Source: Gallionella sp. (GTDB lineage Bacteria; Pseudomonadota; Gammaproteobacteria; Burkholderiales; Gallionellaceae). From it: 61,915 nucleotides of DNA. Positions 43,819 through 60,167 of the stretch are shown in pieces; the first letter of the stretch is position 1; each line of letters starts with the position of its first letter. The stretch is from positions 1 through 61,915 of the forward strand of contig JAQTYN010000013.1 in assembly GCA_028688275.1 (NCBI GenBank), written 5' to 3'. A program made the position numbers and the translations under genes. The notes beneath the pieces were generated by a model. It saw only the letters and a program-made list of their open reading frames with translations. It ran no database searches and was not told where the DNA came from.

Positions 43819-44541
43819 ATGACGACCATGGTAAATTACGAAGCGATATGCAAACGCATTGATGAATTGTCCGATAAGGATCGTTTAGACATGCAGGATC
43901 TCTACCTTTCTCATTATGCAGGATGTACCAAAGCGCAAGTGCAAACCGACTTGCAGGACAAAAGTGAGGCTATTTTGGTTTTCCTTGACCATGTTCTGGT
44001 GGGTTTTACCACGCTGAAGGTCTATGAACGTCAATGGGCGGGGCGCGATATCCGCATTATCTTTTCAGGTGACACCATCGTCGAACGTGCGCATTGGGGA
44101 CAACAAGCACTTGCGTTCACTTGGATTATGAAAATGGGGCAGCTTCAAAAAGAAAAACCAGATTTACCGATGTACTGGTTTTTGATCGTCAAAGGTCATC
44201 GCACCTATAAATATCTGCCTGTTTTCGGTAAATCTTTTTATCCCCACTGGGCAATTGATCGCACCGATTTGAAGCCTTTGGCAGACACCCTTGCACAAGA
44301 AAAATTTGGTGCGGATTACAATCTGGAAACAGGTGTGGTTGAGTTCCCAGAGTCTAAAGGGCATTTAATGCCCGACATTGCCTTACCCACTGAAGAAGAA
44401 AAATCCAAAGAGTCGGTGCAGTTTTTTCTCGCAAAAAATCCAAATTACCTCAATGGACACGAGCTTGTTTGTCTATGCGAAATCACGGAACAGAACATGA
44501 AGCCGCTGACCAAACGGATTTTTGCAAAAGGTCTCGCTTAA
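43819..44541 (+). CDS. GNAT-like N-acyltransferase-type protein, first gene of the cluster
   Basis: 240 residues from the ATG (MTTMVNYEA). A longer in-frame start at 43756 adds poorly placed residues. Alpha/beta protein: RIDELSDKDRLDMQDLYL at the N-terminus, ILVFLDHVLVGFTTLKVY and RIIFSGDTIVERAHWGQQAL as central strands, PMYWFLIVKGHRTYKYLPVF later. This resembles GNAT or autoinducer-synthase-like acyltransferases, but I do not see a textbook acyl-CoA loop. It opens a run of genes all read rightward, two bases before GH3. Possible N- or O-acyl transfer to a small metabolite. Confidence 0.55.
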   Translation: MTTMVNYEAICKRIDELSDKDRLDMQDLYLSHYAGCTKAQVQTDLQDKSEAILVFLDHVLVGFTTLKVYERQWAGRDIRIIFSGDTIVERAHWGQQALAFTWIMKMGQLQKEKPDLPMYWFLIVKGHRTYKYLPVFGKSFYPHWAIDRTDLKPLADTLAQEKFGADYNLETGVVEFPESKGHLMPDIALPTEEEKSKESVQFFLAKNPNYLNGHELVCLCEITEQNMKPLTKRIFAKGLA

Positions 44542-44543
44542 CG

Positions 44544-46070
44544 ATGGCTTGGCAAACGCTGTACGCTCAGGGTGCTAAGCTCAAGGTCACCAACTCATTG
44601 CGTCAACGTCAGGAAAACTGGTTGCAGAATTGTTTGCAGCGAAATCAACCTTGCGCCTATCTGCAACAGCTTGGCGTGAAAGCGGATTCATCATTGGCAG
44701 ATTTTCGCAAACGGCTGCCATTGGTCGATGATGAAATGCTGCGACCTTGGATACAGCGCATCGAACAGGGCGTGCCAAATGTGTTGTTTGACGGGCTGCC
44801 GCTTGCCTTTGAGCAAACAAGCGGTACATCTGGTGGCAGCAAGCGGATTCCCTATACTGCGCACAGTCTGCTGGATTTTCAGCATGCGCTTTTACCTTGG
44901 CTGTCAGATGTGATTGCGGCATTCAAAATCACCTCTGGTTGCGCCTACTGGGCGATCAGTCCCGCCACACGCCCTGCGACAAAAACGCCATCGGGTATCC
45001 CCATCGGTTTGCCTGACGCGGCGTATTTGGGCGAGGCTGCTTTGCACGCATTTATTGACGTGTCTGCCGTGCCGCCTTGGGTGGGAAGTATCGAGAATGT
45101 CCCAGATTGGTCGCTTGCAACGCTGTACTACCTGTTGTGTCGCGCCGATTTGGTGCTGATTTCCGTCTGGAGTCCGACTTTCTTTTTAATGTTGTTGGAC
45201 ACGTTGGCGCAGCAATATGCCGTATTGAGCGATTTGTTGCAACATGGTGGCGTGATCGCGGGGCAGATACTGCCGCCCGATACCGCCGCACTGCAAAGAC
45301 TGGAATGCTATCGACTTAACCGTGATACGCGGATACTCTGGCCGAATCTCAAGTTGGTGAGTTGCTGGGCGGATGCCTCATCCCAACCTTATTTCCACGC
45401 ACTCCAGCAACGGTTGCCTCATGCCATTTTTCAACCCAAAGGACTCTTAGCGACGGAGGGTATTGCCACCGTACCCGATCCGCAGGGCAAAACCGTATTA
45501 GCCGCAGATAGCGGATTTTTTGAGTTTTTGGATCAACAAGGCGAGGCTTGTTTTGCTTGGGAGCTTCAGCAAGGCAAGGAATACGAATTAGTGATGACGA
45601 CTTCAGGTGGGTTGTATCGCTATCGCACGGGAGATGGCGTGTGCTGTGATGGTTATGTGGGTGATCTCCCCGTGCTGCACTTTGTGGGCAGACAAGGGCT
45701 GACCACCGATTTGGTGGGTGAAAAACTGACCGAGCCATTTGTGACTGCGTGTTTGCATGACCTAGTAGGTTTTCGTATGCTGATGCCGAGCACACAAGGC
45801 CAGCCCCGATATGTGCTGATTTTAGATCAAAAGCATGACATAGAAATCCTCGCGCAGACGGTCGAAAATCGGCTTTCAGAAAATCCACAGTACGATTATG
45901 CGCGGCGCATCGGTCAATTGGATGCCTTGTTGGTGTTGCACATTGAGCAGCCACTTGCCTTATGGATACGACGCAAATCCCAAAATGGCATTCGGTTGGG
46001 CGACATTAAAGTGCCGTGTTTGTGCGCGGAAACCGATTGGCTATCTACTTTTATGGAGCAAACAACATGA
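44544..46070 (+). CDS. GH3 family acyl-acid ligase
   Basis: 508 residues from the ATG two bases after the upstream stop. Adenylate-forming GH3 fold: ATP-binding EQTSGTSGGSKRIPYTAHSL near 90, a YWAISPATRP stretch, AIFQPKGLLATEGIATVP (motif II region), YELVMTTSGGLYRYRTGDGV near 350-370 and FVGRQGLTTDLVGEKLTE. Plant GH3 enzymes activate carboxylic acids as AMP esters and join them to amino acids; bacterial members are less well known. Here it would activate the acid, or a fatty acid, for transfer by one of the two GNAT-like proteins. Overlaps the next gene by four bases (ATGA). Confidence 0.85.
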   Translation: MAWQTLYAQGAKLKVTNSLRQRQENWLQNCLQRNQPCAYLQQLGVKADSSLADFRKRLPLVDDEMLRPWIQRIEQGVPNVLFDGLPLAFEQTSGTSGGSKRIPYTAHSLLDFQHALLPWLSDVIAAFKITSGCAYWAISPATRPATKTPSGIPIGLPDAAYLGEAALHAFIDVSAVPPWVGSIENVPDWSLATLYYLLCRADLVLISVWSPTFFLMLLDTLAQQYAVLSDLLQHGGVIAGQILPPDTAALQRLECYRLNRDTRILWPNLKLVSCWADASSQPYFHALQQRLPHAIFQPKGLLATEGIATVPDPQGKTVLAADSGFFEFLDQQGEACFAWELQQGKEYELVMTTSGGLYRYRTGDGVCCDGYVGDLPVLHFVGRQGLTTDLVGEKLTEPFVTACLHDLVGFRMLMPSTQGQPRYVLILDQKHDIEILAQTVENRLSENPQYDYARRIGQLDALLVLHIEQPLALWIRRKSQNGIRLGDIKVPCLCAETDWLSTFMEQTT

Positions 46071-47464
46071 AAATTGTGCTCATTTCCCCGAAAGGCCCGC
46101 TATACCGCAGCAAAGGCGGGATATTCAAAAAATCATTGCGCTACCAGCCGCTGACCCTCACCACGCTGGCGGCGTTAATTCCCGCAGAGCTGAATGCCGA
46201 CATAGAACTGATCGACGAGGGCATACAGGATGTCCCCGATAATTTACAGGCAGATTTAATCGGCATTACCGTCATCACGGGAACGGCAAAACGTAGCTAC
46301 GAACTGGCAAAACAGTTCAGGGCGCGGGGGATCACGGTGGTGCTGGGTGGGTCGCATGTGACACTGATGCCACAAGAAGCGGGCGAGCAGGCGGATGCCA
46401 TTTGTATTGGCTACGCGGAAGAATCTTGGCCGCAATTGTTGCGAGATTTTGCCAATGGCACGATGCAGCCGATTTATCGGCAAAGTCCAACGATGTCCTT
46501 GGAAAACATGCCGTTTGCGCGCCGCGACTTGTTTGATAAGCGGCATTTTTTGACCCAAGCGGTGTTCGAGGCGACGCGTTCCTGCGCCCATGACTGTGAA
46601 TTCTGCGTCGCCCCAGCGGCGTGGGGGCGCAAACAATATCAAAAACCCATCGACTGGGTGATTGAGGACATTCGGCGCGTGGGGCAGAAAAAAATTATTT
46701 TCGTTGATTTGAATCTGGTATCGGATGTCAAATATGCCAAAGAGCTGTTTACCCGCTTGATTCCGTTGAAATTAAACTGGTTCGGACTTTCCACGGTGCT
46801 GATTGCCCATGATCGTGAGTTGATGGAACTGATGGCGCGCAGCGGTTGCAAAGGGCTGTTGCTGGGACTAGAAACCGTGTCTCAGGACAGCTTGAAGGAT
46901 GCCAAAAAGAGCTTCAATGCGTCGGTGGGTTATAAATCGCTGATTGCGGATTTGCATCACTTGGGCATCTCGGTGCAAGGCTGCTTCGTGTTTGGATTGG
47001 ATCACGACATGCCAGATGTGTTTGATACCACAGCAGAATTTGCCATTGACGCTGGTGTGGATTTGCCGCGTTTTGCTGTGCTAACGCCTTTCCCTGGCAC
47101 ACCGTTACACACCCGACTGGAAGCAGAAGGGCGTATCTTGTCACGGGATTGGGAATTGTATGACGGGCAGCATGTGGTGTTTCAGCCCAAAAATATGACG
47201 GTGCAGCAGTTGCGGGATGGGCATGAGCGGGCATGGAAAAAGACCTATGCGTGGTCATCCATCACGCGGCGATTGTGGCATGCCAAAAACTGGCAGCCCC
47301 TCGCCCTCAGCGCAAATATCGGCTATCGCTTCTATGCCCATCATTTGCATCAATTTTATAACTGCGACTGGCAAATCGAGCCGCTGCTACCCAACCCCAT
47401 CGCGGGTTTAGGGCAGACGGTACATTTGTCCAGCGACTCCAAAAATAAGACGATATGCGGCTAA
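46067..47464 (+). CDS. Cobalamin-binding radical SAM protein 1
   Basis: 465 residues from an ATG with GGAG upstream. The N-terminal B12-binding domain (about 1-140) has LIDEGIQDVPDNLQADLIGI and VLGGSHVTLMPQEAGEQADA, without the DxHxxG histidine seen in base-off methyltransferases. The radical SAM core has CAHDCEFC (Cys near 173, 177, 180). A TPFPGTPLHTRLEAEGR segment and a C-terminal tail follow. The BchE/P-methylase-like class uses cobalamin and SAM for methylation, cyclisation or C-C bond chemistry. First of four paralogues in the cluster; more diverged from the other three in its N-terminus. Overlaps both neighbours. Confidence 0.9.
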   Translation: MKIVLISPKGPLYRSKGGIFKKSLRYQPLTLTTLAALIPAELNADIELIDEGIQDVPDNLQADLIGITVITGTAKRSYELAKQFRARGITVVLGGSHVTLMPQEAGEQADAICIGYAEESWPQLLRDFANGTMQPIYRQSPTMSLENMPFARRDLFDKRHFLTQAVFEATRSCAHDCEFCVAPAAWGRKQYQKPIDWVIEDIRRVGQKKIIFVDLNLVSDVKYAKELFTRLIPLKLNWFGLSTVLIAHDRELMELMARSGCKGLLLGLETVSQDSLKDAKKSFNASVGYKSLIADLHHLGISVQGCFVFGLDHDMPDVFDTTAEFAIDAGVDLPRFAVLTPFPGTPLHTRLEAEGRILSRDWELYDGQHVVFQPKNMTVQQLRDGHERAWKKTYAWSSITRRLWHAKNWQPLALSANIGYRFYAHHLHQFYNCDWQIEPLLPNPIAGLGQTVHLSSDSKNKTICG

Positions 47465-48813
47465 CCCTCATCCATCCCGCCATTGGGCATCGCAAGGGCG
47501 AAGGCTATATCCGCTCTTGGCAAATGGAACCCTTGCCTGCCGCTGCGATTGCGGGACTCACGCCGAAAGACATTGAGGTTCGCTTCTATGATGACCGCAT
47601 GGAAAGCATTCCTTTCGACGAGCCGACCGATGCCGTGGCGATTTCCTTGGAAACTTATACCGCCAAACGTGCTTATCAAATTGCCAGCGAATACCGCAAA
47701 CGCAATATCCCCGTGATTGTCGGCGGCTTTCATGCGACCTTGATGCCCGACGAAGCAGCGCGTTATGCCGAAGCGGTGGTGGTGGGCGAGGCGGAGGATA
47801 TTTGGGCGACGGTCATCGACGATCTGCGCCACGGTAACTTGCAAAAATGCTATCAAAGCCTGACGCGCCCTGATTTGGCGCGCATTCATGCGGATCGTTC
47901 GATTTTCAAAAACAAGCGTTATTTACCGATTGCCTTGATCGAAACGGGACGCGGCTGCCGTTTCCCCTGCAATTTCTGTGCGATACAGACCTTTTTTGAG
48001 CGCACCCATCGTACTCGCCCCATTGAAAACATCCTTGCAGAAATCCGACAACTGAAGGACAGCACTAAATTATTCTTTTTCGTGGATGATAATTTTGCGG
48101 GCGACATCCCCGCTGCCAAAGATTTGCTCAACGCGCTGGTGCCGCTGAAAATACGTTGGATTACGCAGATGAGCATCAACGCGGCACACGATGAAGCCTT
48201 TCTGGCAATGCTGGAAAAAAGCGGCTGCAAAGGCGTGTTGATCGGCTTTGAGAGTTTGGACGAGGGCAATTTGCGCGCCATGAAAAAGCGTTTCAACACC
48301 ATGCAAGGTGGCTATGAAAAAGCCTTGCGCAATCTCAGAAAATACAACATCCGTGTGTATGCCACCTTTGTGTTTGGCTATGAAAATGACACCGTTGCCT
48401 CGTTCGATCAGGCGGTGGATTTTGCGATTGAGCAGCGTTTCTATATCGCCGCCTTCAACCATCTCACACCCTTCCCAGGCACGGCACTTTACACACAATT
48501 GCAACAGGAACAGCGGCTGAAATATCCCGCATGGTGGCTGGATGACCGCTATCGCTACAACGATTTGCCCTTCTTTCCAAAACAACTTGAGCCCGAAGAG
48601 GTGACCCGCTTATGCGTCGCGGCACGTCGACGATTTTATGCGTGGGATAGCATCCTTAAACGCGGTCTAGAAAAAACCAACCGCAGCGATTTTTTTATGT
48701 TCCGAAATTTCTTTCCAATCAATATGATGCACCGAGCCGATGTGAGCAACCGCAACGGTTATCCGCTGGGCGATGAAAATTGGCAGGGCGAATTATTGGA
48801 GGCGGTGCGGTGA
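47455..48813 (+). CDS. Cobalamin-binding radical SAM protein 2
   Basis: 452 residues. B12 domain DDRMESIPFDEPTDAVAISL, then VIVGGFHATLMPDEAARYAEA; cluster-binding CRFPCNFC near 167-174; LFFFVDDNFAGDIP; FNHLTPFPGTALYTQL; C-terminal WWLDDRYRYNDLPFFPKQLE. Much closer to paralogues 3 and 4 (same order of these blocks) than to paralogue 1. Its ATG lies ten bases inside the end of paralogue 1. Confidence 0.9.
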   Translation: MRLTLIHPAIGHRKGEGYIRSWQMEPLPAAAIAGLTPKDIEVRFYDDRMESIPFDEPTDAVAISLETYTAKRAYQIASEYRKRNIPVIVGGFHATLMPDEAARYAEAVVVGEAEDIWATVIDDLRHGNLQKCYQSLTRPDLARIHADRSIFKNKRYLPIALIETGRGCRFPCNFCAIQTFFERTHRTRPIENILAEIRQLKDSTKLFFFVDDNFAGDIPAAKDLLNALVPLKIRWITQMSINAAHDEAFLAMLEKSGCKGVLIGFESLDEGNLRAMKKRFNTMQGGYEKALRNLRKYNIRVYATFVFGYENDTVASFDQAVDFAIEQRFYIAAFNHLTPFPGTALYTQLQQEQRLKYPAWWLDDRYRYNDLPFFPKQLEPEEVTRLCVAARRRFYAWDSILKRGLEKTNRSDFFMFRNFFPINMMHRADVSNRNGYPLGDENWQGELLEAVR

Positions 48814-49946
48814 AACCTGTCACGCCCGCCCCGCAAATGGTCTATCGCGCAGGAGGGCTGCTGTTCCGTCCTGCGGGGTCGGCGGATGATGCGGCATTGC
48901 GGCGTTGTTTGCGTGATAACGACATGGATGCGTGGATTAACCTTGCTTTTGAGCGTGAGCCAAGTTTTTTCGACGGTGAAAGTTTGATGGGCGCATCGCT
49001 TGCCGTGATTGCCGAGGCGGAAAAATTGCCGCATGATTTTGTCGGGATGTACACCTGCGCTCAGCTTCCCGTGCATCTGAATGGGCAAGCCGCCGTTGCG
49101 GGTTATTTGGGCGGGTTGCGCGTCAACCCATCCTATCGGCGCAGGATACGCATCTTGAGGGATGGCTTTGCCTCAATTCCTGTTTTAACCCGCCCATGGG
49201 GGCAGCCGAACGCTTGGTTTACCAGCATTGGGCAAGAAAACAATCAAGCGCGCCGTGTGTTGGAAGCAGGTCTCAAACACCTGCCGCGCTACCTGTTTGC
49301 GGGGGAGATGGAAACGCTGGTTTTCCCGACGCGACGAGACCCGCCGACGGGGCTGTTGCAATCCGCGACGCAGGAAGACGTACCCGCATTGAGCGAATTT
49401 TTTAATCAGCAGGCACAGGCGTTCCAATTTTCGCCCAGCCTAGACGAGGCTTGGTTGCGATCATTGGATGGCACGCACGGACTTTGCTTGGCAGATTTTT
49501 GGCTGCTCAAGGACGGCGATGCGTTGCACGGTTGTTTGGCAATTTGGGATCAGCGCAGGTTCAAGCAAACCGTGGTGCGCTCGTACCGTTTTCCACTGAA
49601 TAAACTTCGTGTCGCCTATAACTTGTTGGCGGGCACCCTAGGCAAAATCAAACTGCCCGCACCCAATCAAAAAATTGAGCAGGTGTTTTTGTCGTTTGTT
49701 GCGTTGAACGAATCCGCGCAGCAGAGGGCGGTAGAGGTGGTCAAAGAAGGACTGAGACTGGCGGCAAAAAAAGGCGCGTTGGTCGGCACGCTGGGTTTGT
49801 CCGCGCAGCATCCATTGATCGCTCAACTGAAAACGGCACTCCCTCACGAAAGCTACCGCACGCGTATTGAAACCGTGAACTGGTCAGATGCGGATCGCCT
49901 TGCGCTAGATGATCGCCCCGTACAGCCAGAGGTTGCCCTGTTATGA
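48810..49946 (+). CDS. Double GNAT-like acyltransferase
   Basis: 378 residues from a GTG that overlaps the upstream stop (GTGA) with GGAGG eight bases before; a TTG at 48780 is a weaker start. An N-terminal GNAT-like half (about 1-180: AGYLGGLRVNPSYRRRIRIL with the pyrophosphate-binding loop pattern) and a C-terminal half (about 185-370: QSATQEDVPALSEFFNQQ, FLSFVALNESAQQRAVEVV). Could acylate an amine or hydroxyl of the product. The last about 20 codons and the stop lie in a segment duplicated 1.57 kb downstream. Confidence 0.75.
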   Translation: MKPVTPAPQMVYRAGGLLFRPAGSADDAALRRCLRDNDMDAWINLAFEREPSFFDGESLMGASLAVIAEAEKLPHDFVGMYTCAQLPVHLNGQAAVAGYLGGLRVNPSYRRRIRILRDGFASIPVLTRPWGQPNAWFTSIGQENNQARRVLEAGLKHLPRYLFAGEMETLVFPTRRDPPTGLLQSATQEDVPALSEFFNQQAQAFQFSPSLDEAWLRSLDGTHGLCLADFWLLKDGDALHGCLAIWDQRRFKQTVVRSYRFPLNKLRVAYNLLAGTLGKIKLPAPNQKIEQVFLSFVALNESAQQRAVEVVKEGLRLAAKKGALVGTLGLSAQHPLIAQLKTALPHESYRTRIETVNWSDADRLALDDRPVQPEVALL

Positions 49947-49967
49947 AGCTGGAAAAATTACCCTGTT
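49882..49967. repeat. Direct repeat, left copy, flanking the inserted segment
   Basis: About 86 bases that match 51449-51535 with four substitutions and one single-base gap. The copy spans the end of the GNAT-like gene and a false start (ATGAAGCTGGAAAAATTACC) equivalent to the start of radical SAM protein 3 (ATGAAGCTGGAGAAAATTAC). After this copy the sequence changes abruptly to LprI-type DNA. Confidence 0.85.
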
Positions 49968-50023
49968 GCACCTCTCTTCGGCGTACATTTCACAACCGTA
50001 GGACGAATCGTGAGAGAGGCGAA

Positions 50024-51175
50024 ATGATGAATGAAACAACAAAAATTCAATCCCGAAAATTCAGAAAAGTGCTGTGCAGCGCATTGGGTTTGATGGGCGT
50101 GATGAACGGCGGGGATGCGAAATACTATGATGCTAGACCTGACCCCATGGTTGACCCCGTGGTTCCTTCTTTGATGTTTTTTGCCATTCTTGCTTTTGCC
50201 ATTCTTGCTTTTGCTACGCCAGCACTGGCTGCAAGTGCTGAACCACCTATCTGGCGCGATGTGTTGCTTTATGGCTCGAGCATAACAATTCAACCAGATC
50301 TGCGACCGAGTTTTTCCTGCAAAAAAGCCAAGACTATTGTTGAGCAGCTAATCTGCAGCGACCGCAATCTGGCTAATTTAGACTGGCGCATGTTGGATAT
50401 CTATACCGCAGCTCGAACTTTGCTAACCGATGAAGAAAAGATGAGCGTGCTAAAGACCCAGCGCGAATGGCTGGCAGGGCATGATCATGCTTGTGGTATT
50501 ACCCCAGAGGGTGAATATGTCTACGGTGCCGCTGAGTGCCTGATTAAGCGTTACCTCATGCGTACAGAGAAGCTGCAGGCAATGCTTTCTCGCGGCAATG
50601 TGATTCGTGAGCTGGGCGGCTCAGAGCCGTGGACAGAGAATACGAAGCGTTACGGGATGTCGGAAAACCGCGTCACCCTGCTGCAGAGGTGTGTAGGAGA
50701 AGAATTGGAGGAACAGGTAAATTCGTGTTGTGCGCCTGGTACGGAGACAATAGAAGAAACGGCATCCTCCATCACGGCTTATGTAATCAACGGCAAAAGG
50801 TTCCTGCTTTATAACGGAAAGTATAGTCAGCATTTTAACATACCTCGTTATGCGGATTGTAACGATGAGGTCAACGAGAAGGGTGAGCTTGTTGGCTGTC
50901 CTGATAATACAACCTATGCCAGCTGTGCTGCGCTATTTGCTGAAATCGAGCTTGGAAATGGTGATTTTGCTTTTGCTGGTCATCGCTGGAATTTTCCAGT
51001 CACAATGGATGAATTGTTGATTGGAAAATCGAAGGATCAGCAGACAGGCAAGGAATTTACCAGTGAATTGCATTCCAAGTTGCTCGAGGGAGAAATAGTC
51101 ACACTGGTAACTTCCAAAGGCAAGATTAGCCGTTTCCAATGGGACGCAGGGAAGAAGGTGTATGTGCGGCATTAG
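50024..51175 (+). CDS. LprI-like (DUF1311) exported protein in the inserted segment
   Basis: 383 residues from an ATG preceded by GAGAGG. The frame runs back to 49943 only because it enters the duplicated radical SAM start. A hydrophobic segment at about 55-75 contains a tandem FAILAFAILAF encoded by a 15-base duplication and ends ATPALAASA, a probable signal or anchor; a start nearer to it (50147 or 50174) is possible. The LprI domain at about 95-190 has SCKKAKTIVEQLICSD, LDWRMLDIYTAAR and TQREWLAGHDHACG with conserved cysteines. LprI-type proteins inhibit lysozymes or act in the envelope. Its content is unrelated to the surrounding biosynthetic cluster. Confidence 0.75.
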   Translation: MMNETTKIQSRKFRKVLCSALGLMGVMNGGDAKYYDARPDPMVDPVVPSLMFFAILAFAILAFATPALAASAEPPIWRDVLLYGSSITIQPDLRPSFSCKKAKTIVEQLICSDRNLANLDWRMLDIYTAARTLLTDEEKMSVLKTQREWLAGHDHACGITPEGEYVYGAAECLIKRYLMRTEKLQAMLSRGNVIRELGGSEPWTENTKRYGMSENRVTLLQRCVGEELEEQVNSCCAPGTETIEETASSITAYVINGKRFLLYNGKYSQHFNIPRYADCNDEVNEKGELVGCPDNTTYASCAALFAEIELGNGDFAFAGHRWNFPVTMDELLIGKSKDQQTGKEFTSELHSKLLEGEIVTLVTSKGKISRFQWDAGKKVYVRH

Positions 51176-51420: not shown

Positions 51421-51448
51421 GCGGTTCAACGCCATGCACACATTGAAG

Positions 51449-51535: not shown

Positions 51536-52823
51536 ACGCCCGAATATGGGGGATTACCGTTCAACGGACGGCTTGCCGCCGCTTGCCATGGGGATATTGG
51601 CGGCGCGCACGCCCAAAGACATTGCCGTCAATTTTTATGATGACAAGGTGGAGGTGATTCCTACGGATGACAAACCCGACTTGGTGGCAATCACGGTTGA
51701 AACCTTTACCGCTCGACGCGCTTATGACCTTGCGGCGGCGTACCGTGCCAAGGGTGTACCCGTGGTCATGGGTGGTTATCATCCGACCTTTTTGCCCGAC
51801 GAAGCCTTGCAACACGCCGATGCCATTGTCACGGGCGATGCGGAAGGAAGCTGGGAGCTGTTGCTGGCGGATTTTCGCCATGATCGTTTGCAGCGGGTTT
51901 ATGCGGGCGGCAATGACCGTCCGCTAGATGACTATCGGCTGGATCGCAGTATTTTCAAGGGGAAAAAATACGCGCCCGTGGAACTGGTTCAGTTTGGGCG
52001 CGGCTGTCGTTTTGTGTGTGATTTTTGTTCGATCCACGCGTTTTATCAGGACAAACTGCGGATGCGCCCAGTGGATCACTTTGTCGAAGAATTGCAACAA
52101 TTTAGCCGCCGTAAATTGATCTTTTTTGTGGATGATAATTTATTCAGTTCCCGCGAATTGCTCGAAGCCATGTTGACTGCCATTCGTCCGCTGAAATTGC
52201 GTTGGTCATGCCAGATCAGCATCGACGTGGCGCGGGACGAAGCCTTGCTGGATAAGCTGCGCGACGCGGGCTGCATTTTTGTGCTGGTGGGGTTTGAGTC
52301 ATTGTCGCCCGCTAACTTGAAGCAAATGGCGAAGCCTTGGAATCAGGTCGCGGGGGATTACCTCAGTGTAGTCAAAAAATTTCACCAGCGCGGTATCGCG
52401 GTGTATGGCACATTTGTGTTCGGTTACGATGAAGACACCACGACGACCATCCGCCAAAGTTTGGATTTTGCACAGGAGGCTAAACTGGAAATTGCGAATT
52501 TCAACCCGCTGACCCCCACCCCTGGTTCGCCGCTCTATGATCGGCTGTTAAGCGAAGACCGTTTACTGTCACCCCAATGGTGGCTAGACCCCAACTATCG
52601 CTACGGCGATCCAATTTTTATCCCCAAATCCATGTCCCCCGCAGAATTTGCCGAACAGTGCTTTGCCGCCAAGCAAGCGTTTTATTCTTGGCAGTCCATC
52701 GCCCGTCGGGTGTTGGGATCGGATGCGGGTATTGATTGGTTCCGCACAGGCATGGTCGGGATGGCAAATATCATTTCGCGTCGAGAAGTGATGCGTAAAC
52801 AATATCGAACATTGGGTACATAA
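51510..52823 (+). CDS. Cobalamin-binding radical SAM protein 3
   Basis: 437 residues. B12-type domain (YDDKVEVIPTDDKPDLVAIT, VMGGYHPTFLPDEALQHADA); CRFVCDFC near 165-172; LIFFVDDNLFSSRELL; GSPLYDRLLSEDR; WWLDPNYRYGDPIFIPKSMS. Same block order as paralogues 2 and 4. It probably followed the GNAT-like gene directly (ATGA overlap) before the inserted segment separated them. The ATG lies in the duplicated junction, so its upstream ribosome site is the former GNAT-like coding end. Confidence 0.9.
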   Translation: MKLEKITLLRPNMGDYRSTDGLPPLAMGILAARTPKDIAVNFYDDKVEVIPTDDKPDLVAITVETFTARRAYDLAAAYRAKGVPVVMGGYHPTFLPDEALQHADAIVTGDAEGSWELLLADFRHDRLQRVYAGGNDRPLDDYRLDRSIFKGKKYAPVELVQFGRGCRFVCDFCSIHAFYQDKLRMRPVDHFVEELQQFSRRKLIFFVDDNLFSSRELLEAMLTAIRPLKLRWSCQISIDVARDEALLDKLRDAGCIFVLVGFESLSPANLKQMAKPWNQVAGDYLSVVKKFHQRGIAVYGTFVFGYDEDTTTTIRQSLDFAQEAKLEIANFNPLTPTPGSPLYDRLLSEDRLLSPQWWLDPNYRYGDPIFIPKSMSPAEFAEQCFAAKQAFYSWQSIARRVLGSDAGIDWFRTGMVGMANIISRREVMRKQYRTLGT

Positions 52824-52870
52824 GTAGTTGCATAAAGTAATCGTGTATTTTTAATCTAACCAAACTAACC

Positions 52871-52968
52871 GTGGGTACGAATTTATTCGTACGCTTTTGG
52901 GTATATTTTCCCAATCCTATCCTTGTTTTTCGCCCTGTCGGGCGATGTACGAATAAATTCGTACCCAC
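52871..52968. repeat. 22-base inverted repeat with internal hairpin between radical SAM genes 3 and 4
   Basis: GTGGGTACGAATTTATTCGT continues with AC at 52871-52892 and is mirrored perfectly at 52947-52968. Each arm is itself palindromic around GTACGAATnnATTCGTAC. Between them CGCCCTGTCGGGCG (52931-52944) forms a second hairpin. Resembles a REP/BIME or small MITE. Confidence 0.85.
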
Positions 52969-53019
52969 AATCAATGCAATTGCAACCGCACGATAATTTA
53001 TAGTCAGGTACATAAGCCG

Positions 53020-54351
53020 ATGAAAATAACCTTTATCAAACCCAATATCGGTCGCCGCGAGCATAGCTTGTATGTCGATCATGGTCGGATGGAACCTTTA
53101 ATGCTGGGTGTGTTGGCGGGGCTGACACCGCCCGATGTAGAGGTGACGCTGTTTGATGATCGCATGGAGTCGATTCCGTATGACGAGCAGACGGATTTGG
53201 TGGCGATCACGGTGGAAACTTACACCGCCAGACGGGCGTATGAAATTGCCGCCGAGTATCGGCAACGCGGCGTACCCGTCATCATGGGCGGAATGCACCC
53301 GACGCTATTGCCCGATGAAGCCGCACTGTATGCGAACAGTGTTTTTACGGGCGATGCCGAAACGATGTGGGCGACGGTGGTGGCGGATGCGCAAAAAGGA
53401 CAACTCAAGCGTCGTTATCACGGCGAACCTGGGATTGCCCAAGCAGGTGGGCTATTGCCTAGGCGGGATATTTTCAAGAGCAAAGGCTATTTGCCGATGA
53501 CTTTGATGCAGTATTCACGCGGCTGCCGTTTTGCCTGCAACTTTTGCGCGGTGAGCGAATACTTTGACCGCAAGCATCACATCCGTCGTATCGACGAAGT
53601 GCTGAAGGAAATCGACCATCATGGGCATAAATTCATCTTCTTTGTGGATGACAACATCGCCTCGAACAAGACTGCCCTGAAAGACCTTTGTCGTGAACTG
53701 ATTCCGCTGCGGGTGAAATGGTTTAGCCAAGCCAGTTTGGATATTACTCGTGATGCCGAGTTGATGCGGTTGATGACCGACAGCGGCTGCGTGGGCAATG
53801 TGATGGGGTTTGAAACCATCACGCGTGACAGCCTGCGGGAGTCCAAAAAATCGCCCAACCTGCCTGGGTTCTCTAATTATCAGCAGGAAGTCGATATTTT
53901 GCGGGAATACGGGATGCAAACTTGGGCAGCGTTTACGTTGGGCTATGACCATGACACGCGTGACTCTATCCTCGATACACTTGATTTTGCGCTGACCCAT
54001 CGCTTCACCTTTGCCGCGTTCAACATCCTGATGCCTTATCCCAATACGCCGCTGTACCGCAAATTGGAGACCGAAGGGCGTTTGCTTTACGACGGAAAAT
54101 GGTGGTTGCACCCAGACTATCGCTTCAATCAGGCGGCGTTTGTGCCGAGCAAGATGTCTGCTGATGAGCTGACCGAGGTGTGCCATGCAGCCAGAAAGCG
54201 TTTCAATAGCCTGCCCGCGTTGCTGCATCGTTTCTCGGACATGAAAACCAATATGCGCACCTTGTGGAGCGTGGTGTCCTACTGGAAATACACGATGCTG
54301 TTCAGAAACGAGGTGTATCAAAAGCATCGCATGAGATTTGGGCTGAAATGA
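53020..54351 (+). CDS. Cobalamin-binding radical SAM protein 4
   Basis: 443 residues. B12-type domain (FDDRMESIPYDEQTDLVAIT, VIMGGMHPTLLPDEAALYAN); CRFACNFC near 169-176; FIFFVDDNIASNKTAL; NTPLYRKLETEGR; WWLHPDYRFNQAAFVPSKMS. Closest in layout to paralogues 2 and 3. It is the only one of the four preceded by a real intergenic gap (about 196 bases with a palindromic repeat), so it may have its own promoter. Overlaps the next gene (ATGA). Confidence 0.9.
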   Translation: MKITFIKPNIGRREHSLYVDHGRMEPLMLGVLAGLTPPDVEVTLFDDRMESIPYDEQTDLVAITVETYTARRAYEIAAEYRQRGVPVIMGGMHPTLLPDEAALYANSVFTGDAETMWATVVADAQKGQLKRRYHGEPGIAQAGGLLPRRDIFKSKGYLPMTLMQYSRGCRFACNFCAVSEYFDRKHHIRRIDEVLKEIDHHGHKFIFFVDDNIASNKTALKDLCRELIPLRVKWFSQASLDITRDAELMRLMTDSGCVGNVMGFETITRDSLRESKKSPNLPGFSNYQQEVDILREYGMQTWAAFTLGYDHDTRDSILDTLDFALTHRFTFAAFNILMPYPNTPLYRKLETEGRLLYDGKWWLHPDYRFNQAAFVPSKMSADELTEVCHAARKRFNSLPALLHRFSDMKTNMRTLWSVVSYWKYTMLFRNEVYQKHRMRFGLK

Positions 54352-55013
54352 AAAAAGCGATTTTTGAGGTTTATCAATATGTTGCGCCAGCGGTACTGAC
54401 CCCGCTCTCCTTTTTTCTGTGGTGGCGGACATACGACGGCAATATATGGCTGACGCTGATAGCTTGGCTTACGCCCATTCTTTATGCCTATATTGTTCCT
54501 GGCGTGGGGACGAATATCTTAAAAGTCTGGGAGTTCGATACGCGCTTTCGCTTGGGGCGGTTTCGCCCTCACCACGGATTTGTATTCGGCAGTGCCACGG
54601 CAACCTTAGCTTGGCTGTGCCACGGAGGGTTCGCTAACAGCGTGTTTGATCTGTTTCAAACCAGCTTGGTATTGGCTTCCGTGCTGGGGTTTTGGAATGT
54701 ACTTTACGATGTCAAAGCCATTGAGTCTGGCATCCTGCGGGTATATAACCAGCCTTGGGCGGACGATAAAGGGGCGGAGGCGATCACGCTGGATTATGCC
54801 CCTTGGTTCTTTGCAGGATTTGGGGCAATCTATGGCTTGGGTATGGCGGGGGCGGAATGGTTGGCGGCACGGGGTTTGCTAATTGCGACTGTATTTTGCT
54901 GTTTATTTCCCGTCCTACTGCTCACCGCCATCGCCTTTCCTGTATGGGGCTATCGCCGCCGATCTAATCGGGTACACGGTCATTCGGGCTGTCATCCCAT
55001 CGCCAAGGAGTGA
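54348..55013 (+). CDS. Polytopic membrane protein of the cluster
   Basis: 221 residues from the ATG overlapping the radical SAM stop; the frame continues upstream, but only as an overlap. About five to six transmembrane helices (12-30, 36-58, 83-105, 110-125, 155-175, 180-205). Motifs: LTPLSFFLWWRTYDGN, GTNILKVWEFDTRFRLG, EAITLDYAPWFFAGFGAIYG. No family recognised. Position between radical SAM 4 and the hydroxylase, with overlaps at both ends, argues for a role in the same lipid pathway. Confidence 0.7.
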   Translation: MKKAIFEVYQYVAPAVLTPLSFFLWWRTYDGNIWLTLIAWLTPILYAYIVPGVGTNILKVWEFDTRFRLGRFRPHHGFVFGSATATLAWLCHGGFANSVFDLFQTSLVLASVLGFWNVLYDVKAIESGILRVYNQPWADDKGAEAITLDYAPWFFAGFGAIYGLGMAGAEWLAARGLLIATVFCCLFPVLLLTAIAFPVWGYRRRSNRVHGHSGCHPIAKE

Positions 55014-55948
55014 AAATCTTGCCATTTAACGTGCTTATTTTATTGCTGTCATTTTTTGCCTCGTGGGGCTGTTTGTGGGTCGCCAGTCATTCGAGCTTGG
55101 GCTTTGCGCTGCTTGCCGTGTGGCTGTTTAGTCTCATCGCCAACACGCCGTTTGCCTTGATGCACGAAGCGGTACACGGGGTTGGCTGTGCGTCGCCGCG
55201 CCGCAATGAATGGCTGGGCATCGTGTGTGGCTGGGCTTTCCCGACCTCGTTCTCCATGCAGCGGTTGGCGCATGAAGGACATCATCAGCGTAATCGCACC
55301 GATCAAGAATTGTACGACTACTATTTGCCGCACCAGTCTCGGCTGATGCGCAATCTGTGGCTCTATACGGGTAATCTATTGGGCTTGTACTGGTGGTCGG
55401 TGGTATTGGGAAATGTGCTTTACCTGCTGGCACCTTGGGCATATCGCTCGCGCTTTTTTGTGGAACGCTATGCCCCCGCGTTGGGCTTTGGAAGCTATAT
55501 CGCCGACTTGGCTAAACTGCCCGTGTTACGCGTATGGAGCGAGATTGCCTTGGCGTTTGCGTATCAAGCCCTGATTTTTTATAGTCTTGATTTGAATGTG
55601 TTCTGGACGTTGGCGTGTTACGGCGCATTCGCGCTGCACTGGTCAGTGTTGCAATATGCCGATCATGCGTGGAGTGCGCGCGAGGTGCGCAGTGGCGCGT
55701 GGAATCTCAAGGTCTTGCCGCCTTTTCGCTGGATCGCACTCAATTACCATTATCATTTAGCACATCATCAATATCCCAATGTGCCGTGGTACAAATTACC
55801 CAGTTTGGTTGATCCATCGGTGCTCCAGCCGTCTTTTTGGCGGATTTATTTTAGTCTCTGGAAAGGCGTGCGTCCCGCACCGCCCATGGGTGCACCCGCC
55901 GATTTAGCTTTTCTTTTTCCTGCTGCGGAACAGGAATCGCACCGATGA
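55010..55948 (+). CDS. Fatty acid desaturase/hydroxylase-type membrane enzyme
   Basis: 312 residues from a GTG overlapping the upstream stop. Integral membrane di-iron family with three histidine boxes: LMHEAVHGVG near 51-57, AHEGHHQRNR near 87-93 and NYHYHLAHHQYPNVP near 246-258. About four transmembrane helices. Family members desaturate or hydroxylate acyl chains or carotenoids; which one is not settled by motifs. Stop overlaps the P450 start (ATGA). Confidence 0.87.
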   Translation: MKILPFNVLILLLSFFASWGCLWVASHSSLGFALLAVWLFSLIANTPFALMHEAVHGVGCASPRRNEWLGIVCGWAFPTSFSMQRLAHEGHHQRNRTDQELYDYYLPHQSRLMRNLWLYTGNLLGLYWWSVVLGNVLYLLAPWAYRSRFFVERYAPALGFGSYIADLAKLPVLRVWSEIALAFAYQALIFYSLDLNVFWTLACYGAFALHWSVLQYADHAWSAREVRSGAWNLKVLPPFRWIALNYHYHLAHHQYPNVPWYKLPSLVDPSVLQPSFWRIYFSLWKGVRPAPPMGAPADLAFLFPAAEQESHR

Positions 55949-57315
55949 TTGCTGACCGCCCCGTCTTCCAACCGCCCGCACCGCAGCCGCCCACCGCCTT
56001 GCCGACTTGGCAATTGTTGCGGGCAGCCTTGTTCAATCCGCTGAACGTGTGGTGTCAAAAACATTTTGAGGAGTGGGTGGTGGTGGAGCGCACCCTGCTC
56101 GGTACACGCTTGGTGGTGAGTGACCCCACGCACATCAAATGGATACTGGTCGATCACGCCGACAATTATGTGCGTGACAGTATGCAGCAGCGCATCGTGC
56201 TGCGCATGACGGGGCGCAGCGTGTTTTCGGCAGAGGGGCGCAAGTGGCAAGTTCAACGCCAAGCCTTAGCACCGCTTTTTTCGGCGAAAACGGTGGCGAC
56301 CTACTTGCCCAATATGGTCGCCGCCGCAGAGGCGGCGGTGCATCGGTTGCGTGCCATAGGAACGGAGATTGACCTTGGGCGCGAGATGGCGGCACTGACA
56401 GTCGATGTGCTGGGCCGCACGATTTTTACGCAGGGATTAGGCGAGCCGTCGACGGCGATAGCCGAGAGTGTAAGACGGTTTGCCGACATCAACGGCATGG
56501 TTGAACTGGGCGATTTACTCGGATTGCCTGCGTGGTTGCCAGGCATACGGCGCATGTTGGGGTGGCGCACGACCGCCTTGGTGCAACAACGGGCGAAACG
56601 TGTGATCGCCGAGGCAAAAAGGGCAGGCTCATCGCCGCCAGACGATCTCTTCGCGCGTCTTTTTGCGGCGCATGATGCCGAAACGGGGCAGTCGTTAAGT
56701 GCCCGCGAGATTGAGGGCAATGTGTCCACCCTGATTGGCGCGGGTTCGGATACGGTTGCGGTCGCTTTGACTTGGGCTATCTTTTTGCTGTCACAGACAC
56801 CACATGTACGCGAAGCAGTCGAGGCAGAGGTGGATGCGTATCTGACCAGTGAGTCATTCACGGCTGACACGCTTAAAAAACTGGTTTGGACGCGTGCCGT
56901 GGTTGAAGAAAGTATGCGCTTGTATCCACCCGCCCCGATGATCGGGCGCATGGCTCGCAGCGCAGACAAGCTAGGGGACGAGCACGTGCCAGCGGGAGCG
57001 TCCCTTTTGATTTCGCCTTGGGTGTTGCACCGACATGCCAAGCTGTGGCATGACCCTCATGCCTTTGTGCCTGAACGTTTTTTGCCTGAGCAACGGGCGC
57101 AAATTCCACGCTTTGCTTATCTGCCCTTCGGCGCGGGGTCTCGTGTCTGTTTAGGGATGGGGTTTGCGATGCAGGAAGCGGTGGTGATTTTGGCGATGCT
57201 GATGAAACACTTGCGTTTTGAACGCGCCGATCATCACCCTATCGAACTGCGCCAGTGCATCACCTTGCAAACGAAGGAACCGTTGCGTATGCACATTCGG
57301 TCTCGCTCAGCATGA
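55945..57315 (+). CDS. Cytochrome P450
   Basis: 456 residues. I-helix GAGSDTVAVAL near 265-275, ExxR in VVEESMRLYPPAP near 320, and heme-binding FGAGSRVCLGMGFAMQ with the axial cysteine near 401. An N-terminal Pro-rich stretch precedes the fold; there is no clear transmembrane helix, so it is soluble or peripheral. Layout is that of the CYP102/CYP120-like group acting on fatty acids and terpenoids. No ferredoxin or reductase gene is in the cluster, so electron partners come from elsewhere. Overlaps PAP2 by four bases. Confidence 0.92.
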   Translation: MIADRPVFQPPAPQPPTALPTWQLLRAALFNPLNVWCQKHFEEWVVVERTLLGTRLVVSDPTHIKWILVDHADNYVRDSMQQRIVLRMTGRSVFSAEGRKWQVQRQALAPLFSAKTVATYLPNMVAAAEAAVHRLRAIGTEIDLGREMAALTVDVLGRTIFTQGLGEPSTAIAESVRRFADINGMVELGDLLGLPAWLPGIRRMLGWRTTALVQQRAKRVIAEAKRAGSSPPDDLFARLFAAHDAETGQSLSAREIEGNVSTLIGAGSDTVAVALTWAIFLLSQTPHVREAVEAEVDAYLTSESFTADTLKKLVWTRAVVEESMRLYPPAPMIGRMARSADKLGDEHVPAGASLLISPWVLHRHAKLWHDPHAFVPERFLPEQRAQIPRFAYLPFGAGSRVCLGMGFAMQEAVVILAMLMKHLRFERADHHPIELRQCITLQTKEPLRMHIRSRSA

Positions 57316-57932
57316 ATACAGCGTATTTTTCTTGGCCCGATGCGGCGCGATGGCGTGCTTTCCTCAAGTTTATGGCACTGTTCTACGTGTTTTTCTTTCC
57401 GCTTTATTTTGGCGCGGGATATGTTGCGGCACATGCCCCGCAAACGTTTGGGTTCTATGGTGCATGGGAGCGCAATATCCCACTGGTTCCTTGGATGATT
57501 TGGCCGTATTTATCGTTGTACTCGGTATTTTTGTTGCCGCTGTTTCACCTAAGTGCCAAACAAATCGACATACTGGCACGTCAGTCCACAGCGACGTTGC
57601 TCATCGCGGGTGGTATTTTGCTACTGTTGCCAGCGCACTTAGGATTTGCGCCAGCCAAAGTGGTGGGGCTACATCAACCGCTGTTTGATTTGCTCACTCA
57701 AGTGGATACGCCACACAACCTCGTGCCGTCGTTGCATGTCGCATTTGCTGCGTTGATTCTGCTTGGCTGTGCTGAACGCGGCCCCAAGTTTTGGGCTTGG
57801 GGATATGGAGCCTGGTTGGTGCTGATGTCTGCCTCCACCGTGCTGGTTCATCAACATCACCTGCTTGATGTCATCAGCGGGCTGGGACTGGCTTTTATCA
57901 TGCGGCGGATTTTCCCGCTCGGCTCTTCCTGA
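57312..57932 (+). CDS. PAP2 family lipid phosphatase/phosphotransferase
   Basis: 206 residues from the ATG that overlaps the P450 stop. Six transmembrane helices. Signature DTPHNLVPSLHVAFA (motif 2, near 132-146) and TVLVHQHHLLDVISG (motif 3, His and Asp near 177-185). The HNxxPSLHVA form is that of AUR1/inositol-phosphorylceramide-synthase-like PAP2 enzymes that transfer phospho-head groups, as opposed to plain PSGH phosphatases. Likely dephosphorylates or head-group-modifies the lipid made here. The 3' end overlaps the convergent NTF2-like gene by 35 bases. Confidence 0.85.
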   Translation: MNTAYFSWPDAARWRAFLKFMALFYVFFFPLYFGAGYVAAHAPQTFGFYGAWERNIPLVPWMIWPYLSLYSVFLLPLFHLSAKQIDILARQSTATLLIAGGILLLLPAHLGFAPAKVVGLHQPLFDLLTQVDTPHNLVPSLHVAFAALILLGCAERGPKFWAWGYGAWLVLMSASTVLVHQHHLLDVISGLGLAFIMRRIFPLGSS

Positions 57933-58506
57933 CAAACCAGCCCGCGACGAAGCCCAGCATCAAACCACCTGCGGCACCTGCCACGCCGACCCAGACCACG
58001 CTTTTTTCGATAGCACTCAAGACGGGATTGTCGAGAAAGTTCGTGCCCGTATGAATAGCCAGTAATTTCCATTCGCCATTATCTTTGATGGAAACCGCTG
58101 TCCAGCGTCCATTCATGTCGAAACTGCGTCCGTCTGCCATTTCATAATGCTCTTTGGTCGAACCCTTGTTGACGGCAAATGTCCCTTGATAGATTTGCGA
58201 CAGACCATCAGGCTCCGCCGCAATCGACACGGTTTTCATGCGCAAGGTGTCGCGGGTGTATAGGTTCTCAAAATACGCTTTGAGTTTATCCATCTCCGTG
58301 AAGTTGTCCTGCGTCACCAAGGTGGTCATAAACGGTTGATGCAGTAGTTTTTGCAGGGCAACGTAATCACGGCTGTTCGCGGCGGCGGCGAGTTCGACCT
58401 TCAACTTGCGCAGGGCGGCTTGATCGGTTTGTTCCCCTGAGTTGTCCGCAAAAACGGGCGCAGCAAGCAACAGGGATAAGGCGAGGGTGGCAAAGAGACG
58501 GGACAT
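57898..58506 (-). CDS. Exported NTF2-like (DUF4440/SnoaL-type) protein with C-terminal anchor
   Basis: 202 residues. A signal peptide (to about 20, LLLAAPVFA) precedes an NTF2-like cone fold (about 30-145: LRKLKVELAAAANSRDYVAL, NDF-type strands, FDMNGRWTAVSIKDNGEWKLLAIHTGTN). A transmembrane helix at about 165-190 (GVAGAAGGLMLGFVAGWFV) and a basic tail (RKSRAGK) follow. Periplasmic, tethered. Could bind or isomerise a small hydrophobic compound, as some NTF2-like proteins do. Last gene of a three-gene minus operon facing the main cluster. Confidence 0.75.
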   Translation of the reverse strand: MSRLFATLALSLLLAAPVFADNSGEQTDQAALRKLKVELAAAANSRDYVALQKLLHQPFMTTLVTQDNFTEMDKLKAYFENLYTRDTLRMKTVSIAAEPDGLSQIYQGTFAVNKGSTKEHYEMADGRSFDMNGRWTAVSIKDNGEWKLLAIHTGTNFLDNPVLSAIEKSVVWVGVAGAAGGLMLGFVAGWFVRKSRAGKSAA

Positions 58507-58546: not shown

Positions 58547-59215
58547 TCAGGGGGTTTGGGGATGCGCTTTGCGGCGCGGCCACTCCTCAAAGGGGTGGAC
58601 ACGGCAACCTGTGGGCAGCATCTTGCCTGCACGCAACACGGCACCAGGGCCGAGTTGCGCCGCACCGCCGAGTATCGCCTCGGACTCGACGATAGGTGCG
58701 GCTGCCAGCACCAGCCAACGACCCGTTGCATCGCGTTGTACCAAATGCCCCGCCAGGATGCTCTTCATGCCTAACACCGCGCCGCGTTCAACGCGAACAG
58801 CGTGGCGGTCGGTAATCAGCACCCTAGGGCCGACATAGGCATAAGGACTAAGCTGACCGCCCCACAATTTTATCCACAACGCGTACAGCCCTGGCACCAA
58901 TCGTAATAATTCCTCCAGCCACGGCAAACGGTTAAACAGCATTTGCCACTGGGTCAATGCCCACCACACCCGATACGCACGCATGTCTTGGGTCAATCGA
59001 CCTGCTGGTCGCCCCCAAATGACAATGATGAGTCGGGCGGCGAGCGGTGGTAGCAGGTAAATCCACGCGGCAAACATACCCACGCAAGCACTGGTTGTCT
59101 CACTGACGCCCACGGAAATGCCCAAGCCTGAGACCAAATGTAGAAACGGTAAGCCATTCAGCCATAAGGAAAAAGCACTGGGTTTTTCCAGATTATACGA
59201 TTCAACGTCGGTCAT
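58547..59215 (-). CDS. Membrane-linked left-handed beta-helix (hexapeptide) protein
   Basis: 222 residues. Two hydrophobic stretches near the N-terminus (20-75) are followed by a linker and a C-terminal left-handed beta-helix (about 115-205: PYAYVGPRVLI, ERGAVLGMKSILAGHLV, APIVESEAILGGAAQLGPGAVL). The hexapeptide fold is found in acyl- and acetyltransferases and in carbonic anhydrases; no catalytic residues stand out. Overlaps the AurF-like gene upstream by 14 bases, so both are co-translated. Confidence 0.65.
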   Translation of the reverse strand: MTDVESYNLEKPSAFSLWLNGLPFLHLVSGLGISVGVSETTSACVGMFAAWIYLLPPLAARLIIVIWGRPAGRLTQDMRAYRVWWALTQWQMLFNRLPWLEELLRLVPGLYALWIKLWGGQLSPYAYVGPRVLITDRHAVRVERGAVLGMKSILAGHLVQRDATGRWLVLAAAPIVESEAILGGAAQLGPGAVLRAGKMLPTGCRVHPFEEWPRRKAHPQTP

Positions 59216-60167
59216 AGCCCAGCATCCTTTCGCCCAGATTCGCCAATTCTGGGGTGTGGTCGAACACTTGGAAGGTGACGGGCATCATCTGGCGATTAAA
59301 CAAACTTTCTTGAAACGCTCGATTTTTCTCCAACGCCAGAATTGCCTGAATCATCTCTTCCTTGCGGCTGGACAATTCTGGCATTTCGCGCACCAACTGG
59401 TGAATGACCATGACCCCAGAACCGCTACGCGTGGGACGGGTAATGCCGCGCAACATGGCTTGGAACAACCACGCATTCACGCGTTTCGCTTTGCCCGCTG
59501 AACCCATGCACTGTTCAATCATCCTGCCGTCGATATGTAGGTGACGCGCTTCGTCTTTCATGTGTTCACGATGTACCGAAACGAAGGCGAGGTCTAGCGC
59601 ACCCAGCGTCTCCGTTTCGGGATGCCGTATCATCTCTCGCGCCATCGCCATGGACGATTCTTCCATCGCCATCAAATACCACAGCGCGAAAGCGAAACGT
59701 CCCGAAAGTGCACCAACCATCCAGAACATGGCTTGTGTCCATGCGGGCAGGCGAGAAAACAGGCGATCCTTGCCAAGCGGATAAAGGTCGGGACGGCAAG
59801 CGCGATTTAGTGCGGCAAAGGCAGCAAAATGCTTGTTTTCCTCTTCCATCATGGTGGTCATCGCTTGAACAAAAGCGGCATCGGCGGCAATTTGAGGTAG
59901 ACGAAGCAGTGGGGTAAGCAAGCGTTCCACCAAATCCGCTTCCAGCATCATAATGTACTCATTGATACGCAAGCCGAATAGCTGGTTGTAACGCAGTCGC
60001 TGCTCGAAATTCAGCGTGGTGTAGATAGGTGTGTAGTAAAGCTGGGTATAGCCTTCGGGTACGAAGGGGCGGTGCAAATCAACGTCCAAAGCCAAGGACG
60101 TGCGCGTGCAGTGAGCAGGATTAGCGGACAGTCGATTGATATGTTCTGCGGCAAGCCATCGTTTCAT
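59202..60167 (-). CDS. AurF-type di-iron oxygenase
   Basis: 321 residues from the methionine of MKRWLAAEH. The frame extends upstream to a GTG at 60347, but those 60 residues do not look like the family. Metal ligands of the AurF/CmlI family are in order: MMLEADLVERLL, MEEENKHFAAF (ExxH), MAMEESSMAMAREM and HREHMKDEARHLHIDG (HxxxxDEARH). Family members oxidise aryl or alkyl amines to hydroxylamine or nitro groups, or cleave fatty-acid-derived substrates. First gene of the minus operon converging on the main cluster. Which substrate it uses here is unknown. Confidence 0.85.
   Translation of the reverse strand: MKRWLAAEHINRLSANPAHCTRTSLALDVDLHRPFVPEGYTQLYYTPIYTTLNFEQRLRYNQLFGLRINEYIMMLEADLVERLLTPLLRLPQIAADAAFVQAMTTMMEEENKHFAAFAALNRACRPDLYPLGKDRLFSRLPAWTQAMFWMVGALSGRFAFALWYLMAMEESSMAMAREMIRHPETETLGALDLAFVSVHREHMKDEARHLHIDGRMIEQCMGSAGKAKRVNAWLFQAMLRGITRPTRSGSGVMVIHQLVREMPELSSRKEEMIQAILALEKNRAFQESLFNRQMMPVTFQVFDHTPELANLGERMLGYDRR

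Follow-up and report, generated by a model that had tools for sequence, protein, structure and literature searches.

In the ladderane and hopanoid lipid pathways several radical S-adenosylmethionine (SAM) enzymes act on lipids. For the cluster considered here, the nearest characterised relative is OlsH, a GH3 enzyme from the synthesis of ornithine lipids, which makes N-acyl ornithine (PMC12493201). The cluster, of 14 pathway genes, occupies positions 43819-60167 (16.3 kb) of a stretch of 61,915 nucleotides, which is called the window throughout and comprises positions 1-61,915 of the forward strand of contig JAQTYN010000013.1 of Gallionella sp. (assembly GCA_028688275.1, 3.16 Mb); its closest named record by GNAT1, the first gene, is the Gallionella metagenome-assembled genome (MAG) STB_49, with 97% identity. 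Since its linkage is conserved across phyla, the set is strongly supported by sequence comparison as a coherent, uncharacterised biosynthetic cluster. The pathway is real, conserved and mobile and, as far as a search of open-licence full text goes, undescribed: no description of the cluster or its product was found in open-licence PMC full text, a search in which some queries were very broad and which does not prove absence. Two papers, PMC10300848 and PMC8305402, are, to judge by passages from them, unrelated to the cluster.

Gene order, conservation and transfer

All 14 reading frames are open. Eleven genes run rightward in the order GNAT1, GH3, rSAM1, rSAM2, GNAT2, rSAM3, rSAM4, MEM, DES, P450 and PAP2 (rSAM, radical SAM enzyme; MEM, membrane protein; DES, desaturase/hydroxylase), and three (NTF2-like, BHELIX and AurF-like) run leftward, converging on them. 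Overlaps of 4 or 10 bp are found at 8 of the 11 rightward junctions, the LprI-like gene described below being counted in. The initial annotation had read this gene content and coupling directly from the sequence, and both hold; the families that it gave were likewise confirmed, while an insertion and a repeated element inside the cluster had been overlooked.

When species genomes were scanned with an alignment of nine GNAT1 sequences, 478 stretches were obtained, of which 436 are relatives; the locus counts that follow refer to the best 80. Full-length rSAM1, rSAM2, rSAM3 and rSAM4 were found 37, 36, 28 and 26 times, respectively, and all four together at 26 loci, figures which are minima because contig ends cut some loci. 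By record name, the loci with all four enzymes comprise 9 Gamma-, 8 Beta- and 4 Alphaproteobacteria, 2 Acidobacteriota, 2 Campylobacterota and 1 Planctomycetota (a MAG), many of the carriers being MAGs whose taxon labels are possibly wrong; the named strains among them are Malikia, Zhengella, Leminorella and four Morganella genomes. Most often the genes run GNAT1-GH3-rSAM1-rSAM2-GNAT2-rSAM3-rSAM4-MEM-DES; among the exceptions are L099, where rSAM3-4 and the remaining genes lie on the opposite strand, L074, in which MEM was not seen, and L071, L093 and L115, with AurF after MEM. The whole 14-gene set is present in the Gallionella sister (L143) and in two Rhodocyclales MAGs (L051/L141 and L061/L142). 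Across 17 extended stretches of the rSAM type, two of which are the same contig, PAP2 occurs in 16 and NTF2 in all 17, P450, AurF and BHELIX being optional. The enteric versions (L159, L160, L162 and L166) are devoid of MEM and carry a fifth rSAM gene beside DES, 39-43% identical to rSAM1. Moreover, the rSAM pairs occur apart (rSAM3-4 but no rSAM1-2 in the stretch read of L148, rSAM1-2 without rSAM3-4 at 8 of the 80 loci, some of them cut short), so that rSAM1-2 and rSAM3-4 behave as modules. The search for the same set in other genomes, suggested by the initial annotation, has thus found homologues that are linked and not scattered, in an order conserved across classes and phyla, which bears out its view of a coherent, undescribed set; the literature search likewise agrees with its failure to match the set to a known pathway.

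Five further arrangements contain both GNAT1 and GH3. GNAT2 is present in four of these, and is linked with the pair in other cluster classes as well. The five are Rieske-mem24-GNAT1-GH3-GNAT2-RnfD/ASPIC; GNAT1-GNAT2-Metal_hydrol-DES-GH3-Rieske, in Burkholderia, Pseudomonas and Cupriavidus; DES-Rieske-GNAT1-GH3-GNAT2, in two betaproteobacterial MAGs; amidohydrolase-PAP2-GNAT1-Rieske-SDR-AurF with GH3-BHELIX-FA_hydroxylase, in Chitinimonas and others; and a distant GNAT1-GH3-GNAT2 among HlyD, MFS, OEP and SurE-like genes in Acinetobacter baumannii. In one A. baumannii record labelled as a plasmid but 3.97 Mb long (L167, 9132-18565), HlyD, MFS, GNAT1, GH3, OEP, GNAT2 and SurE-like genes are consecutive. 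For two Rieske proteins that were scanned, SdmA, a methylsterol monooxygenase, is the nearest named model, with 70 and 79 bits against a cut-off of 600. That a whole family of related products exists is suggested by the Rieske-bearing sister classes of Burkholderia, Pseudomonas, Accumulibacter and cyanobacteria.

The cluster is rare. Within the genus GNAT1 occurs in 2 of 76 genomes, and within the class in 9 of 369; some type of GH3 is present in 17 of 399 genomes from the order, the own genome being counted each time. At the level of the phylum, MEM was found in 1 of 398 genomes, namely in the window itself. Relatives of the upstream gene are found in 5 of the 76 genus genomes, those of the window and its sister included; no empty insertion site was shown, the stretches from the three other genomes sharing no further flank with the window and containing no cluster gene. 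A mobilizable, IncFIB/IncFII-typed plasmid of 159 kb in Citrobacter portucalensis from a gull (L166, NZ_CP134684.1, 18010-30105) carries 11 genes: GNAT1, GH3, rSAM1, rSAM2, GNAT2, rSAM3, rSAM4, PAP2, NTF2-like, rSAM5 and DES. Megablast with the Citrobacter cluster found nothing in E. coli genomes, a scan of IMG/VR with the window's GNAT1 gave nothing, and rSAM3 had no match in phage records at E 1e-20.

The identities along the cluster are mosaic. Of the two loci L041 (Chromatiales) and L051 (Rhodocyclales), the former is the closer to the window in GH3 (53 and 43%, respectively), rSAM2 (78 and 67), GNAT2 (52 and 38), rSAM3 (73 and 65) and MEM (68 and 55), and less clearly in GNAT1 (61 and 57), rSAM1 (73 and 71) and rSAM4 (76 and 70). 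From DES on, L051 is the closer (DES 66% against 56% in L041, PAP2 68 against 43, NTF2 68 against 34); its P450, BHELIX and AurF are 68, 76 and 78% identical, and none of these three was seen in L041, whose contig stops 0.6 kb past PAP2. This switch of nearest relative suggests an exchange near the MEM/DES border.

Enzyme families, inserted elements and boundaries

Table 1. Position and assignment of the features of the cluster (window coordinates)
Feature	Position	Strand	Assignment	Evidence
GNAT1	43819..44541	+	GNAT-fold acyltransferase, hallmark of the cluster family	
GH3	44544..46070	+	acyl-acid amido synthetase-like ligase	PF03321 129.5 bits, GH3_M, GH3_C
rSAM1	46067..47464	+	B12-binding radical SAM enzyme	PF02310, PF04055 over cut-off; own clade, 42 rows, support 97
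rSAM2	47455..48813	+	B12-binding radical SAM enzyme	PF02310, PF04055 over cut-off; clade 40 rows, support 97
GNAT2	48810..49946	+	GNAT-like acyltransferase, 378 aa	PF13527 22.1 bits, below cut-off 25
LprI insertion	49882..51535		insertion (~1.6 kb) with LprI-like gene (49943-51175) at GNAT2/rSAM3 junction	LprI 26.8 bits
rSAM3	51510..52823	+	B12-binding radical SAM enzyme	PF02310, PF04055 over cut-off; clade 33 rows, support 100
Repeated element	52830..53005		element of ~180 bp between rSAM3 and rSAM4, containing inverted repeats	
rSAM4	53020..54351	+	B12-binding radical SAM enzyme	PF04055 48.6 bits; clade 31 rows, support 100
MEM	54348..55013	+	multi-helix membrane protein, possibly Insig-like	
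DES	55010..55948	+	membrane diiron desaturase/hydroxylase	PF00487 79 bits
P450	55945..57315	+	P450	PF00067 233.8 bits
PAP2	57312..57932	+	PAP2-type lipid phosphatase/phosphotransferase	PF14378 23.5 bits, below cut-off 27
NTF2-like	57898..58506	-	DUF4440, apparent signal peptide and C-terminal membrane anchor	PF14534 29.5 bits; signal/anchor by eye
BHELIX	58547..59215	-	membrane-anchored hexapeptide-repeat-like (left-handed-helix-like) protein, possible acyltransferase	repeats by eye
AurF-like	59202..60167	-	AurF-like diiron oxygenase	PF11583 42.3 bits, cut-off 29.6

The four rSAM enzymes constitute four old orthologous groups. In a tree of 148 sequences built by a quick method, rSAM1 and rSAM4 each form one side of a branch, and rSAM2 and rSAM3 do likewise once one very divergent outlier each is set aside; the fourfold divergence thus predates the spread of the cluster. 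The CxxxCxxC motif was found in every one of the 127 full-length sequences that the 80 loci provide. The B12-binding domain PF02310 of rSAM4 scored 29.9 and 32.5 bits in two scans (cut-off 32.1), and the host genome contains a gene of the cobalamin adenosyltransferase family.

By its domains and nucleotide-binding motifs (TSGTSGGSK, LLATEG and LYRYRTGD), the GH3 gene, which starts at the ATG at 44544 (the profile-scan query began at 44538, two residues earlier), is assigned to the GH3 family. The key motif positions are kept in 73 of 73 sequences when counted by aligned columns; a strict regular-expression count (motif I in 21 of 72, motif III in 48 of 72) was dropped as too strict, because the motif letters vary. 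Two conserved neighbours at other loci of the family (L029:15158-16138 and L104:11781-12707; c25 and c7) have no clear Pfam family and a serine-hydrolase-like stretch noticed by eye, and are possibly alpha/beta-hydrolases like OlsI. As regards GNAT1, the fold test placed it in the GNAT fold.

In the remaining enzymes, the DES histidines 52, 56, 88, 91, 92, 219, 252 and 253 are invariant in 38 of 38 sequences, the PAP2 residues S140-L-H142, H182 and D186 in 18 of 18, BHELIX H157 in 10 of 10, and E109, H113, E206 and H209 of the AurF-like protein in 7 of 7; by PF11583 and these acidic and histidine positions, the latter is assigned to the AurF-like diiron oxygenase family. In Malikia spinosa strain 83 (L157, 10045-10961) the DES match is split into three fragments separated by frame changes, which denotes either a broken gene or an assembly error. 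MEM has a possible resemblance to MvINS, and Foldseek gave no match for it at E <= 0.001. No match was obtained for BHELIX in Pfam or NCBIfam and none of significance in the PDB (best E 0.49). Altogether, 3 of the 15 cluster proteins have no Pfam match.

The insertion with the LprI-like gene is flanked by direct copies, of about 86 bp and 94% identity (49882-49967 and 51449-51535), of the GNAT2 end and rSAM3 start, so that both neighbouring genes stay whole. Among the 80 loci the LprI match is found in the Gallionella sister only, the insertion being common to both, and it is not thought to be part of the pathway. The ~180-bp element, which is not part of the pathway, has two more near-full copies (89%) and about 50 partial or reverse-complement matches in its own genome, and is missing from the sister cluster at this site.

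On the right, the alignment with the sister contig runs to window position 60445 and then diverges, and the AurF-like gene is the last match also in two Rhodocyclales MAGs, which fits a boundary after this gene. The sister stretch at this edge (window 60378-60445) also matches window 20653-20738 with 80% identity, and this repeat may therefore mark the edge. The left edge is based on GNAT1 being first in the gene order at other loci, because the sister contig starts only 0.8 kb upstream of it.

Proposed pathway and alternative explanations

Gene content, catalytic motifs that are intact, conserved gene order, the old fourfold divergence of the rSAMs and the mosaic identities are read from the sequences, whereas substrate, product, order of steps and type of reaction are inferred. 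We give an even chance to a pathway, acquired by horizontal transfer, whose product is a small amide-linked molecule, probably a lipid. GH3 would adenylate a carboxylic, probably fatty, acid and couple it to an amine or amino acid, an acid activation that is supported by its motif positions, which are invariant; GNAT1 and GNAT2 would add further acyl groups. Both activation and acylation had been foreseen by the initial annotation, the latter in keeping with the presence of two GNATs. The rSAM1-2 and rSAM3-4 modules would act on unactivated carbons, using cobalamin and SAM for C-methylation or for oxidation or ring formation; the radical alkylation or cyclisation named at the outset is among several reactions available to this enzyme class. 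DES, P450 and the AurF-like enzyme would carry out O2-dependent hydroxylations or desaturations, MEM might hold a membrane-bound intermediate, and PAP2, the NTF2-like protein and BHELIX may serve finishing or export at the inner membrane. Four paralogous B12 enzymes in one order across phyla would mean that the product skeleton needs several separate C-H reactions, without polyketide or peptide machinery. More broadly, and with somewhat less than even confidence, the cluster may represent a widespread class, found on a plasmid in one case, for a natural product or membrane lipid made without polyketide synthase, nonribosomal peptide synthetase or ribosomally synthesised and post-translationally modified peptide (RiPP) machinery, in which a GH3/GNAT amide core has its skeleton rebuilt by interchangeable modules (paired B12 rSAMs or Rieske/diiron oxygenases). 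As named strains (Morganella, Leminorella, Zhengella) and the mobilizable Citrobacter plasmid carry the cluster, the product can be sought directly.

The lipid nature of the product, also put forward by the initial annotation, is likely: the membrane-bound DES, PAP2, the possibly Insig-like MEM and a P450 whose closest solved chains are 7wzl (a putative P450), LUT5 and then the BM3 group, that is, near carotenoid and fatty-acid hydroxylase structures, fit a hydrophobic substrate better than a polar one. Weighing against it, the P450 scores best in NCBIfam on models from terpene and RiPP pathways, among them the albaflavenone monooxygenase model (192.5 bits, cut-off 700) and that of ApyO (178.6, cut-off 525), all far under cut-off. 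A small polar or alkaloid-like metabolite, built on a core that bears an amine, acylated by GH3 and the GNATs and decorated by the rSAMs and oxygenases, would agree with these models, with a GNAT1 fold nearest to protein and aminoglycoside N-acetyltransferases, with the weak similarity of DES to the arginine hydroxylase GntB, with rSAM scores on BchE and PhpK as good as those on lipid families, and with the export genes around the core-only A. baumannii version; we consider it doubtful, though with an appreciable chance of being right. A catabolic or detoxifying island degrading a lipid could account for the abundance of oxidative enzymes, and genes of the P450, Rieske, diiron and PAP2 types occur in catabolism too; but the tight coupling of a GH3 ligase with two acyltransferases and four enzymes that consume SAM is costly and typical of synthesis, and no beta-oxidation gene was found among the 14 proteins scanned, which makes it very improbable. 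That the genes are chance neighbours with no common function is hardly conceivable, given an order conserved across classes and phyla and the plasmid copy.

BchE and AcsF are an O2-independent and O2-dependent pair, and in a similar way rSAM3-rSAM4(-MEM) and Rieske enzymes might be alternative means of functionalising the same scaffold positions, the rSAMs being oxidases or hydratases and not methylases. A Rieske gene adjoins 1 of 25 loci with rSAM3/4 against 39 of 44 without (Fisher 1e-12), and of the 5 usable loci that carry rSAM1-2 alone, 2 have such a gene (two of the remaining three break off shortly past GNAT2), as does L053, too short for that count; BchE is, furthermore, the best NCBIfam model for rSAM2-4. 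However, correction on the GNAT1 tree leaves four supported independent pairs and no significance (median p 0.5), so that shared ancestry may explain the pattern; the BchE matches, of 91-97 bits, lie far below the cut-off of 481, and L046 has both rSAM3/4 and a Rieske gene. This proposal is unlikely, and is compatible with the amide-linked lipid pathway preferred here.

Comparison with characterised systems

HpnJ, HpnR, BchE, PhpK and rSAM_ladder_B12 share with the window's enzymes the B12-binding and radical SAM domains and the CxxxCxxC motif. Unlike them, the latter form four orthogroups of their own and stay far under each curated cut-off, none of which was reached (best scores, in bits against cut-off: BchE 97/481, HpnJ 92/578, HpnR 69/650, PhpK 91/600 and rSAM_ladder_B12 77/360). 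With the ladderane and hopanoid pathways, compared through these rSAM models alone, the cluster contrasts in that the proteins scanned have no ketosynthase, acyl carrier or terpene cyclase domains, a GH3 and GNAT core being present instead. A RiPP pathway was held unlikely, related clusters being tightly packed and no precursor gene having been noticed, though no dedicated precursor search was made.

The OlsH/OlsI pathway of Singulisphaera (PMC12493201) resembles the proposed one in that its first step is the formation of an N-acyl amino acid by a bacterial ligase of the GH3 type, and in its conserved GH3 nucleotide motifs. The OlsH model NF052613 is the sole NCBIfam match of the window's GH3, yet at 27.6 bits against a cut-off of 620; the GH3s of other loci scored 35.5, 22.7 and 30.6 bits, one having no match. 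An alpha/beta-hydrolase Pfam domain of the OlsI type was not found among the 15 cluster proteins, and the window's cluster adds to its ligase the GNATs, four rSAMs, DES, P450 and AurF.

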